Positions 5,958 through 53,691 of a stretch of 64,000 nt of DNA are shown piece after piece. The stretch lies in assembly GCF_001687605.2 (NCBI RefSeq), contig NZ_CP016539.2, positions 3,192,501 to 3,256,500 of the forward strand, given 5' to 3'. Made by a program: the position numbers and the translations under genes. This DNA comes from Planococcus plakortidis (GTDB taxonomy: Bacteria > Bacillota > Bacilli > Bacillales_A > Planococcaceae). The notes under the pieces are model-generated. The model saw only the letters and a program-made list of their open reading frames with translations, was not told the DNA's origin and did not search any database. Positions within the stretch are counted from its first letter, which is position 1. Every line of letters begins with the position of its first letter.

Positions 5958-5971
5958 AAGCTTCTCGCATG

Positions 5972-6040
5972 TTTCCACCTTTGTTGGGTAGATGTTTCTA
6001 CTTTTGTTAGGTAGATATTTCTACCTTTTTTAGGTAGAAC
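5972..6040. repeat. Three tandem 23-bp repeats, each an inverted repeat
   Basis: Copies lie at 5972-5994, 5995-6017 and 6018-6040. The third copy contains a perfect dyad TCTACCT-N5-AGGTAGA; the others keep it with one to three changes. The array follows the YdeI-family stop and precedes the opp terminator. It could be a set of operator-like sites or a short satellite; function unknown. Confidence 0.85.
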
Positions 6041-11861: not shown

Positions 11862-12022
11862 AAAAAAACCCCTTCTTCTTTTCGACAAGAAGAGGAGTGG
11901 TTTCATACGTTCGATCGCCTCTCTTATCTCTGTACTCGCGGTACAAGGAATTAGCACAGTGCCGCATTGCGGTCTGCTGCTTTGACGTCTCAGGGCCAGT
12001 CCCTCAGTCAATCTCGATAAGA
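11862..12022 (-). ncRNA. SAM-I riboswitch (S-box) with terminator, upstream of peptide ABC operon
   Basis: Read on the minus strand, the aptamer has the S-box landmarks in order: P1 5' strand CTTATC (12016-12021), GAGGGACTGGCCC, a CAGCAGACC variant of the CAGCAACC segment, GTGCTAATTCC, and P1 3' strand GATAAG (near 11923). A terminator stem (AACCACTCCTCTTCTT with its complement) and seven T follow at 11861-11915. High SAM should end transcription before the binding-protein gene. Confidence 0.95.
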
Positions 12023-12041
12023 TGATTAAATTGTAAAGTTC

Positions 12042-16427: not shown

Positions 16428-16572
16428 AAAAAAGCCTCTTTCAATAGGAAAGAGGCTTCGACCAATTTCTTATCTCTCAGAATGAATACATCCTGCAGGA
16501 ATTAGCACCTCTCATGGATATGATGGTTGCTGGACGTCATAGGGCCTGTCCCTCGGTCTCTCTGGATAAGGT
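16428..16572 (-). ncRNA. SAM-I riboswitch (S-box) with terminator, upstream of amino-acid ABC/mmuM operon
   Basis: Minus strand: CTTATC (16565-16570), GAGGGACAGGCCC, canonical CAGCAACC, AGGTGCTAATTCCTGC and GATAAG (16469-16474). This matches the S-box consensus better than the 12-kb copy. The terminator AAGCCTCTTTC/GAAAGAGGCTT (16432-16458) with a T-run follows. SAM binding should switch the operon off. Confidence 0.97.
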
Positions 16573-43414: not shown

Positions 43415-43635
43415 CTATCTTCTCCCCCTCTGCGTCCCAATTGTTCCACATGTACCTAGCCGTTTTGACATTCTTTGCTATCCTTTACTTTATCATTATT
43501 TCAACCATTTCGCACCTTTGGGTGGTCCCAGCAGGGCTCAGCGGCGAACGGGTTCTAGAGGCGTAAAAGCCTGGCGATGATAGCGAGGGATTTCGTGTAG
43601 ACATGTTTCTGCGTGTTAATTAAGCATCTTATTGG

Positions 43636-43812
43636 TCTTCGCCGCCCTGCTTTGGGTTGGCCTCCTGCCATAAGCCAGGAAGAACACCTGTCTTACGGCA
43701 TCGGCTCACCCTTTTACGCTGGGCGGCTTAAAGATTTCATTGAGTCGAATGTGTTTAGGCAGTTCAGCCTCTGTAGTCAGTTGCCGGCTAGTTGGGGAAT
43801 CGCTTCCTGAGA
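43636..43812. repeat. Long-hairpin repeat C4 (single copy)
   Basis: It aligns with the tandem units at 52.2-53.0 kb: GCCGCCCTGCTTTGGGT, CTGCCATAAGCCAGG, CCTGTCTTACGGCATCGG and GGGAATCGCTTCC. The outer arms GCCGCC/GGCGGC and inner arms TAAGCCAGG/CCTGTCTTA can form one long hairpin. It lies upstream of walR. Confidence 0.85.
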
Positions 43813-51078: not shown

Positions 51079-52047
51079 TTACTTTCCTTTAAACTCGTGC
51101 GCCCGCTTGATCCAGCCCCTGATGTCGAAGCCGAGATCCAAAATCCCGATGATGCTCGTAAACGACTGCAAAGGAAATGCAAGAACCGTCACAACAACCA
51201 TCACCCAGCGGGGCCAGCCCTCTTGGTGGATATAGAAATGATAGAACGATACCCCCTGCAAAAACAGCAAAAACTGCAGAAGCATCGAGGCATTCGCGAA
51301 AATCAAATACGCCATGGTCCCTTGCTCAAAATCCGACAGCAAAGATACCAAAATGACGATCAAATAATACCATAGCACGCTTTTCGGCAAGCGCATCTCG
51401 CGGAACGGCGGGAATTTCGGTACCGCAACGCCGACCCGTTTCAAAATCGGCAGCAGGATCAACAGCAAGACCCAAACCGTCGTAAAGACCGATAAGACCA
51501 ATAATGTCGGCAGCAAGGTCTCGAACGTCAGCATGAACTGCGCGACAAGCTCCTCGTATTCCTGTGTCGATTCCGATCCAAGCCGCTCAAGCCACGTTCC
51601 CGCCTGTTCATATAAACTGCGCATCGTCGCCATGAATTCCTCAAGGAAGTTGATGCCGAACAAGGCGATCGCTGCCACATACTGCACCATCAATGACACC
51701 AGCAGCACGATGCTCGAACCCATGAACATGAACAACTTGCTTTTTTTATACTGGATCGACAGCCCGACCACAAGCCCCAGCGGAATGTGGATCAACGCCA
51801 AAGGCAAAGACAGCAATCCGCCGATCAGAAAGCTTAACACGGCCCCGACCACTGCGACCAGCGCCGACGCCTTCACCGGATACTTGGCGCTATACCAAGC
51901 AATCGGCAATGCCAAAAACAAAGTACTGATCAAACTCAGCACCGGTACATATACAGAAACAGCCAATAAGACGGCAAACAGCGCCGTCATCATGGCTCCA
52001 TTCGTCAATTGACGTGTCTTTTGGTTAGGCATATCTGCGTTTTTCAT
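51079..52047 (-). CDS. YybS-like DUF2232 membrane protein
   Basis: Integral membrane protein of 322 residues with about eight helices, DUF2232 family, conserved upstream of gdpP in Bacillales. Function unknown. The N-terminal TNGAMMTALFAVLLAVSVYV and the later long helices fit. The ribosome site before ATG 52047 is weak (GAAAGAAG). First gene of the yybS-gdpP-rplI-dnaB operon; a promoter lies about 30 bases upstream. Confidence 0.88.
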   Translation of the reverse strand: MKNADMPNQKTRQLTNGAMMTALFAVLLAVSVYVPVLSLISTLFLALPIAWYSAKYPVKASALVAVVGAVLSFLIGGLLSLPLALIHIPLGLVVGLSIQYKKSKLFMFMGSSIVLLVSLMVQYVAAIALFGINFLEEFMATMRSLYEQAGTWLERLGSESTQEYEELVAQFMLTFETLLPTLLVLSVFTTVWVLLLILLPILKRVGVAVPKFPPFREMRLPKSVLWYYLIVILVSLLSDFEQGTMAYLIFANASMLLQFLLFLQGVSFYHFYIHQEGWPRWVMVVVTVLAFPLQSFTSIIGILDLGFDIRGWIKRAHEFKGK

Positions 52048-52075
52048 CTTCTTTCGGGTTTATTTCATCCGTATA

Positions 52076-52104
52076 ATTGTACCATGATTCAAGCCCCCGA
52101 ACAA
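52076..52104 (-). promoter_or_regulatory. Probable promoter of the yybS-gdpP-rplI-dnaB operon
   Basis: Minus strand TTGTTC (52099-52104), 17-base spacer, TACAAT (52076-52081). The -35 box is poor, the -10 good. Confidence 0.5.
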
Positions 52105-52245
52105 AAAAGGGAGGTTGCCTCACTGTACACCTATCGCTTCGTTTCGAGAAGAAAAAAGTTCCTGCCCTCTGGCGTTGGCCGCCTATAGAAAATCAGTATC
52201 GCTGATTCGCCGATGGATGGAAATGGTCGATGGAAATCAAATATG

Positions 52246-52998
52246 GAAATCGCTTCCTGCGGCAAGGTTCAAGAAGATAGTGAGAGTTTAGGTGTCGAAG
52301 CGTTTCAGCAGTCTACTTGGGCTTCATCTTTCTATTCGCCGCCCGGCTTTGGGTTGGCCTCTTGCCATAAGCCAGGAAGAACGCCTGTCTTACGGCATCG
52401 GCTCACCCTTGGCGCTGGACGGCTTGGAGATTTCAATGTCTCGAGCATGATTAGATAGGTCTACTTCTGTAATCAGTTTCCGGCTAGCAGGGAAATCGCT
52501 TCCCAAGGAAAGGGTGAAGGAGATAGTCAGATTTTGTGTGTTGAACTGTTTCAGCAGTCTACTTGGGCTTCATCTTTCTATTCGCCGCCCGGCTTTGGGT
52601 TGGCCTCCTGCCATAAGCCAGGAAGAGCACCTGTCTTACGGCATCGGCTCACCCTTGGCGCTGGACGGCTTGGAGATTTCATTGATTGGGGTGCGTTTAA
52701 TCCGAACTGCTTCTATAAAGAGTTGCCGGCTAGCGGGGAAATCGCTTCCCAAGGAAAGGGTGAAGGAGATAGTCAGATTTTGTGTGTTGAACTGTTTCAG
52801 CAGTCTACTTGGGCTTCATCTTACGGTTCGCCTCCCGGCTTTGGGTTGGCCTCTTGCCATAAGCCAGGAAGAACGCCTGTCTTACGGCATCGGCTCACCC
52901 TTGGCGCTGGACGGCTTGGAGATTTCAATGTCTCGAGCATGAATAGATAGGTCTACTTCTGTAATCAGTTGCCGGCTGGCGGGGGAATCGCTTCCCGA
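52246..52998. repeat. Tandem array C1-C3: three 246-bp units, each with a long hairpin
   Basis: Unit starts (GGAAATCGCTTCC) lie at 52246, 52491 and 52737, with a partial fourth at 52983; the GTCTACTTGGGCTTCATCTT block repeats exactly every 246 bases (52311, 52557, 52803). Each unit holds a conserved core of about 100 nt: GCCGCCCGGC...GGGT pairs with ACCC...GCTGGACGGC outside, and TAAGCCAGG with CCTGTCTTA inside. Long frames through it are by-products. The gap 52048-53454 holds no gene. Confidence 0.9.
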
Positions 52999-53150
52999 GA
53001 AGGAGGGTTTGGCAATAATTTGCTTGAAGCAAGAAGAAGCATATTCCTTTCAGTAAATCGAAACGGTCGACTGTCTCTATGACCCTGGATGAAGTGAACG
53101 TTAAAACGAGATGCATCTCCACATATTCATTTGTGTGTGCTGAAGGAACG

Positions 53151-53306
53151 GCTTTCCGCTCTAAAAATAAAGACGTAGTGGAAGGGGCTGACGCCTGTGG
53201 GACCGCGCGGGCTGGCGAGACAAACGTGCCGCGCTCTTTGGCACGTTGGCTCAACACCCGCCCCACGGCAAGCAGCCCCCTGCAACGCAGTCGAAAAGCG
53301 GAAGCT
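53151..53306. repeat. Intergenic repeat B3
   Basis: Terminal GCTTTCCGCT/AGCGGAAGC inverted ends, AAGGGGCTG/CAGCCCC next inside, then CGGG...CCCG arms and a perfect central hairpin AACGTGCC/GGCACGTT. It resembles B2 at both ends but has a different centre. Confidence 0.8.
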
Positions 53307-53414
53307 TTTCCACTCACTCCTTTTTATTTCTGCCAAATCAGTTGTAAGTTTTGCAGTGCAGTCTTAGCTATTCTGCTCACTAACTTAACTCCCGCCGGTC
53401 AATTTCCCAAAGCA

Positions 53415-53446
53415 TATAAAAAAGAGGCCGGTTTCCCGGCCTCTTT
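53415..53446 (-). terminator. Terminator of rpsF-ssb-rpsR
   Basis: AAAGAGGCCGG/CCGGCCTCTTT, 11-bp perfect stem with a four-base loop and a T-rich tail, immediately after rpsR. Confidence 0.93.
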
Positions 53447-53454
53447 GAACAATC

Positions 53455-53691
53455 TTATTTATCTTCCGCTACGAACGGTAGAAGTGCCATGATACGAGCG
53501 CGTTTAACTGCAATCGTCAAACGACGTTGCCATTTAGCGCTTGTGCCCGTAACACGACGTGGCAAAATTTTGCCTCGCTCAGAAATGAATTTCTTAAGCA
53601 AATCAGTGTCTTTGTAGTCGATGCGTGTAATGTTGTTTGAAGTGAAATAACAAACCTTTTTACGCTTCTTGCCTCCGCGACGTGGTGCCAT
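53455..53691 (-). CDS. rpsR: Ribosomal protein bS18
   Basis: A 78-residue basic 30S protein that pairs with bS6 on the platform. It starts [15 protein letters not shown] and keeps [20 protein letters not shown] near the middle. Third gene of the conserved rpsF-ssb-rpsR operon, 52 bases after ssb. Confidence 0.97.

Follow-up and report, generated by a model that had tools for sequence, protein, structure and literature searches.

The locus between rpsR and the gene group leading to dnaB in Planococcus plakortidis raises a simple question: why does a long hairpin recur there in tandem, and in which molecule, if any, is it kept? We analysed a window of 64,000 nt (the whole stretch of DNA under study; contig NZ_CP016539.2, positions 3,192,501 to 3,256,500), to which coordinates refer unless stated otherwise. 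The first-pass annotation had described three head-to-tail copies of a 246-bp unit with a core of about 100 nt able to fold end to end, and both descriptions are borne out. Our repeat finder places the array at 52245..52999 (no strand assigned), with units starting at 52245, 52491 and 52737 at a spacing of 246, units 2 and 3 being 86% and 91% identical to unit 1; TRF reports 52245-52996 with a period of 246, 3.1 copies and a score of 1194, far above the other two of the three arrays in the window. The stem segments named in that annotation are all present in the sequence, and RNAalifold, applied to 34 copies from this genome, returns one long interrupted hairpin of ~98 nt with 24 pairs, fixed 1x1 mismatches and a 7-nt loop, at 52333..52430, 52579..52676 and 52825..52922 (assigned to the - strand, on which the structure is better supported; see below). 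The core alone folds better than shuffled sequences, and does so on both strands; the 5' and 3' portions that flank it do not, the 3' one staying within chance (every second copy was taken for the core and the full unit). A conserved 3' block on the + strand, of GCCGGCTAG..GGGAATCGCTTCCC type in unit 1 (52475..52504), recurs in unit 2 (52721..52750) and unit 3 (52967..52996). A separate tandem array of three copies of a 23-bp unit lies at 5969-6038.

The array belongs to a longer composite. The range 52246..52998, as first annotated, holds for the tandem part, but similarity to other loci of the genome extends to ~53321, and a dispersed single copy of the unit lies at 43576..43791 on the + strand (genome 3236076-3236291). 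Behind the last unit a tail (52997..53151, no strand), which resembles the tails of many arrays of this genome, but less closely, leads to a G+C-rich module with inverted ends (53152..53321, no strand); by eye, the order unit, tail, module recurs at ~21 of 25 loci in this genome. Region 53120-53330, which covers the module, has 38 matches in the genome, some of them away from 246-bp arrays. The sequence inside the module at 53152-53321 is exchangeable between its inverted ends. Beyond the composite, the 3' end of rpsR (ribosomal protein S18; 53455..53691, -) faces it, and on the other side of the array a DUF2232 (YybS-like) gene (51079..52047, -) heads the gdpP-rplI-dnaB gene group, so that the neighbours are, as claimed, S18, DUF2232, GdpP, L9 and DnaB, all on the - strand. 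The array had also been placed between the rpsR terminator and the promoter of the GdpP/DnaB operon: a terminator-like site is indeed found between rpsR and the composite (53446-53421, -), and the promoter is left unconfirmed, because a sigma-70 scan of 52000-53500 yielded no promoter-like site. At gathering score, Rfam 15 recognises only two SAM riboswitches in the window (16467-16572 and 11921-12023, both -; 15 matches genome-wide) and nothing in the array, for which a permissive Rfam search of the array itself gave a best E of 9.6.

The repeat is dispersed. With one 246-bp unit as query, a DNA search of the genome gave 42 matches at ~26 loci, which lie on either strand and in many cases are tandem, with 1-4 units per locus. 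Searching with R1, a covariance model built for the core hairpin, gave at least 48 matches at E up to 0.001, including eight further loci that are absent from every alignment described below; since 150 of 1224 first-look candidates were scored, the 48 hairpins are a lower bound. The array is thus one of ~26 loci found by DNA plus eight more found by the hairpin model, and the suggestion that it plays a special role near the origin is not supported. Loci do lean towards the origin-proximal half (21 of the 26 DNA-search loci, with further counts of 30/38 and 28/38 among the positions listed), but with the eight model-only loci counted in, the lean weakens to 23/34, and the SAM riboswitches lean to the same extent (12/15 in this genome; further counts 6/9 and 9/12). 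We rejected an origin-specific structure on these grounds, which removes a false lead offered by the proximity to dnaB.

The hairpin is also spread across the genus, with matches in 46 of the 46 Planococcus genomes searched (32 by the hairpin model, 14 by DNA). By DNA the 246-bp unit matches 25 of the 46, 14 of which hold at least 27 matches each, and all of the other 32 genomes match the hairpin model at E up to 0.1, with 2-51 hairpins per genome and best E values from 1e-20 to 1e-7. Array periods vary by species from ~146 to ~248 nt (~156 nt in G008, 146 nt in G027), and the 246-bp unit is one clade's version of a wider hairpin family. Arrays of ~216-nt period occur alongside the 246-bp type in one genome (G015:C1:2718900-2720100 and 2680600-2681800). 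At family level, 50 of 200 genomes match the hairpin model at E up to 0.01; those outside the genus number 22 and belong to four other genera, a single match near E 0.001 being all that some of them have. At least 120 stretches of a collection of named genomes contain a 27-base apical pattern, and the 80 listed were all titled Planococcus or Planomicrobium; 79 of these 80 loci (all but L185) were searched. The same pattern was not found in viral contigs, and, with no phage match and one Planococcus plasmid record with matches at four places, we rejected a viral or plasmid element. Dense clusters of hairpin arrays occur within 20-30 kb (L163 and L164 in G008, L168 and L169 in G011). Judged by eye from ORF translations, the G008 cluster has neighbours that are presumably exopolysaccharide-like, secreted protease and similar genes; it sits amid ordinary genes, and a gene-cassette array or island was dropped as a candidate. 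No earlier description of this repeat family appears among the papers listed by searches of openly available literature, several of which were broad.

Covariation supports the view that the hairpin would be maintained as a structure by selection, as first proposed. Within this genome (34 copies; alignments A1 and A2, built from 34 of 44 profile matches in its loci), double changes occur at 9 of the 24 pairs; for the genus as a whole, alignment A3, whose 112 distinct rows come from named contigs, has compensatory double changes at 19 of 24 pairs and 92.8% of its cells paired, figures that include seven opposite-strand matches to hairpins already in A3. The covariation score was reached by 0 of 500 shuffles in either case. 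For A3, neither shuffles (0/500 on any of five measures) nor slid structures attain the observed values; in A1 one measure was attained by 37/500 shuffles; alignments A4 and A5 concur, with 1 to 9 of 500 shuffles attaining the observed value on weaker measures and, in A5, 302 double-change cells observed vs 74 in shuffles. A3, A4 and A5 have species as well as orthologous loci in common and hence are no independent sets, and because the alignments are mostly model-fitted and kinship inflates counts, the size of these effects is not to be read as a probability. A lack of compensatory changes in the stems had been named beforehand, beside a missing transcript, as what would speak against structural selection; compensatory changes are present, and that objection consequently falls away.

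In which strand the structure matters can be asked from its non-canonical pairs. As a control we took SAM riboswitches of the same genomes (29 of 30 loci fetched, of 45 matches listed), which on their transcribed strand hold 40 G.U and 2 A.C pairs. Read on the + strand, the hairpin gives, in four overlapping alignments, A.C:G.T locus-by-pair events of 20:5 in A1, 43:18 in A3 (resting on the first 86 of 114 rows), 76:13 in A4 and 58:27 in A5. These counts exclude pairs that are Watson-Crick in under half of the copies and include those positions of 1x1 loops at which most copies do pair, which were added after inspection of the data; before their addition the A.C excess was smaller (23:16 in the same 86 rows of A3, 45:12 events in A4, 46:27 cells in A5). 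Since A.C on the + strand is G.U on the - strand, the - strand is favoured as the structured molecule, and its ratio is indistinguishable from that of the SAM control in A1 (p 0.13) and A4 (p 0.15) and differs from it in A3 and A5 (p about 0.001). Substitutions point to an asymmetry within the core: outside it, rates per site are without asymmetry (G>A 6.8, C>T 6.5, A>G 5.4, T>C 4.6), paired columns are asymmetric (G>A 52 at 18 sites, C>T 29 at 17, A>G 2 at 6, T>C 12 at 7), and unpaired core columns are skewed as well (G>A 29 at 7 sites vs C>T 16 at 9 sites). Folding energies are mixed. Genus-wide, 62 of 86 core copies have the better fold on the - strand, but only 20 of the 34 copies of this genome do (p 0.46), and window copy 1, as DNA, has z of -3.3 on the - and -1.0 on the + strand; whole units are more stable on the + strand in 33 of 34 cases, a lead that disappears when they are compared with shuffled sequences (done for 17 of the 34 units). 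On this evidence the structured molecule is more likely to be an RNA of the - strand, the strand of rpsR, than one of the + strand; the structure first read on the + strand is real, but the opposite strand is somewhat better supported.

The most serious alternative, which we consider possible but distinctly less probable than the RNA reading set out below, is that pairing is kept at the level of DNA, as single-stranded DNA or a cruciform, either through protein recognition of the mismatched hairpin or through arm-templated correction at replication. It would account for arms that change together with few wobble intermediates (one pair is GC in 66 cases, AU in 65 and GU in 3) and for a core that folds on either strand. 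G.U makes up 1.0-1.6% of standard pairs in the hairpin (1.6% on the - strand in A5) vs 10% in the SAM riboswitches of the same genomes, and because wobble is scarcer than in this control, a DNA-level hairpin stays a candidate. Against it, A.C outnumbers G.T in each of the four alignments when the + strand is read. Replication-strand bias was tried as the source of that excess: a first set gave 41:8 at head-on and 4:4 at co-directional loci, and a larger one 32:22 and 12:5, so that the excess appears in both replication classes and this cause was dropped. In addition, conserved mismatches persist (C.T in 128/136 and T.C in 119/136, that is, A.G and G.A on the - strand), which templated repair alone should have corrected. 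Between - strand RNA and a DNA hairpin we therefore lean towards the RNA, as a leaning and not a result.

The age of the loci was addressed by seeking the coding flank pairs of 18 loci of this genome in four related genomes, which covered 17 of 25 stretches and gave, among the flank matches listed, 60 of 72 possible orthologous intervals (L073, listed with both flanks in four genomes, and L071, likewise listed in G043, lie outside the 60). The repeat is present in 59 of the 60, with partial matches only in one (L053 in G043), and the sole unfilled interval (L058 in G036) holds ~190-280 unalignable bases and so looks replaced, not cleanly empty; no clean empty site, at which a target-site duplication could be read off, was found among the 60. 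Units per interval range from 1 to at least 5, their number varying among species at one locus. At rpsR the array is found in all 13 carrier genomes fetched there, and a fourteenth (G040) has a unit ~450 bases from the rpsR piece on the same contig; among 17 other genomes this place holds a diverged hairpin in 1 and none in 16 (one of them cut off on the relevant side). The nearest relative of a unit comes from the same locus for 121 of 149 units, and the linkers are, as had been noted, more divergent than the core, both between loci (identity 0.67 outside vs 0.85 inside) and between orthologs (0.73 vs 0.88; 149 units). Retention, same-locus kinship and a slowly changing core together fit ancient dispersal followed by vertical descent with constraint on the core, and present-day transposition is not needed to account for the distribution.

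The arrays are, moreover, oriented with respect to genes. In 23 of 25 arrays of this genome, scored with a codon-based gene finder, the 3'-side gene is convergent and hence on the element's - strand, and none lies between divergent genes (L062 was taken as two arrays, L072 was dropped as no gene was called on one side, and the gene calls include short ones). In relatives, the 3' gene is convergent at 13/15 and 13/15 arrays of this or a nearby type, several of them orthologous, vs only 18/39 for other array types, so that the bias belongs to this subfamily. With the 3'-side gene pointing at it, the element lies, on the - strand, downstream of a gene running in the same direction.

Small interspersed repeats are usually viewed as mobile-element debris. 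A neutral relic of an extinct MITE- or BOX-like element, which entered downstream of terminators in a single orientation and has since done no more than decay and vary in copy number, would indeed explain the many loci with a recurring unit-tail-module order, an insertion-like orientation bias in this subfamily only, and several degenerate copies. We nevertheless consider it improbable, as divergence in the core is about half that in the remainder of the unit, compensatory changes are present and the orthologous intervals are still almost all filled. Set against the debris view are the same loci kept across species, a hairpin with compensatory changes, linkers that turn over and mismatches that lean to one strand.

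Our preferred reading, held tentatively, is that these are old, genus-wide, dispersed non-coding repeats with a covarying ~98-nt hairpin that would be made as - strand RNA by read-through and act at the RNA level. It starts from what the sequences show, a covarying hairpin, repeated and dispersed, that stays at fixed loci while its copy number changes and that has, in this subfamily, an orientation bias. The selected molecule is probably the - strand read as RNA, to judge from the mismatches; that this RNA arises by read-through past the terminator of the facing gene (here rpsR), with the hairpins as stable RNA structures, is a more speculative suggestion. Several findings weigh against this reading: the low wobble share, a - strand ratio that departs from the riboswitch's in A3 and A5, the even 4:4 at co-directional loci of the first set (12:5 in the larger one), the G>A skew in unpaired core columns, the weak strand preference among the 34 cores of this genome, the missing orientation bias in other subfamilies, and a scan that gave no sigma-70-like promoter near the array. 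The course of events would begin with dispersal and fixation, which are old, and continue with copy-number change at fixed loci, as seen among species and perhaps through slippage or unequal recombination, with the hairpin apparently under selection. Read-through from the gene ahead would then yield - strand RNA, as strand asymmetry and orientation suggest, and by analogy the hairpins may affect RNA stability (3'-end protection), processing or protein binding. A bolder version, which we regard as quite improbable, has genus-wide RNA hairpins in 3' extensions whose loop and mismatches would be read by a dedicated protein, copy number serving as an evolvable dial on transcript stability or processing for essential genes such as rpsR. 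The mismatch asymmetry gives the preferred reading a clear prediction, namely which strand is transcribed, and at rpsR, a single locus, the 13 genomes that were fetched provide a ready-made series of arrays differing in copy number.

The first-pass annotation had offered a repeated small RNA, a DNA structure near the origin and a protein-binding array as possibilities; for the last, a bare candidate, the evidence points neither way. As for self-contained tandem small RNA genes on the + strand, unit-wise repetition with a stable fold, together with the better raw energy of whole units on that strand, would suit them; they are very unlikely given mismatches that are mostly A.C and not G.U, the reverse of the riboswitch control (40:2), and an array with neither promoter-like site nor Rfam match in the scans above. 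Equally hard to credit is spread and maintenance of the hairpins by the IS200-like transposase of many of these genomes, in the manner of REP elements with RAYT transposases, which are described as many-copy intergenic palindromes (PMC3733652) of, in the descriptions drawn on here, 20-40 bp: the Planococcus repeats are likewise many-copy intergenic palindromes, a Y1 transposase match exists in 29 of 46 genomes, and the six genomes with at most five hairpins have no Y1 transposase or only a fragment, but the hairpin is ~98 nt long and set in head-to-tail arrays, neither a hairpin within 1.5 kb nor any piece of the composite was found at the 30 transposase loci that were fetched out of 39 listed matches, the transposase gene of this genome (outside the 30) lies ~27 kb from the nearest listed hairpin, hairpin number does not clearly differ with the gene (p = 0.11, 32 genomes), and 9 of those 32 genomes hold 22-49 hairpins without it. 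On these counts a RAYT partner is not supported. An IS200-like Y1 match at G000:C1:2348288-2348623 lies in an open frame of 327 aa, and similar Y1 matches occur in many genomes of the genus, many in ~200-aa frames.

Two known families come closer in description. BOX elements of Streptococcus pneumoniae (boxA-boxBn-boxC) are presented as dispersed composites with variable tandem middle modules between end modules, with predicted stem-loops, and transcribable as operon extensions (PMC3049150). Dispersed copies in one genome and a variable number of tandem units are found here too; unlike BOX as portrayed in that account, the Planococcus unit measures 246 bp, contains a mismatched hairpin of 98 nt, occupies the same loci across species and carries strand and covariation evidence. 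The bcr1-bcr18 repeats of the Bacillus cereus group are dispersed and intergenic, and bcr10 and bcr18, with conserved structure and predicted RNA action, have 84/165 and 62/155 copies in transcripts, often in UTRs (PMC3446304). Like these, the Planococcus repeats are dispersed, intergenic, structured and from Bacillales, but their hallmark is the tandem array with a genus-wide hairpin and differing linkers, and transcripts, which that source reports for bcr, are here a prediction. The repeat works like BOX and bcr and may, by its description, be grouped with them among modular, interspersed and structured repeats.

Finally, some copies, in this genome and in relatives, carry an extra sequence of ~86-105 nt in the hairpin tip. 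Inserts of ~86-88 nt, themselves with inverted repeats, were seen at L321:724-907, L305:1805-1990, L100:458-642 and 791-974, L418:438-623 and L071:2090-2273. They look as if some element had targeted hairpin tips. Similar letters can be made out by eye inside some G+C-rich modules (e.g. L051, L056 and L068).
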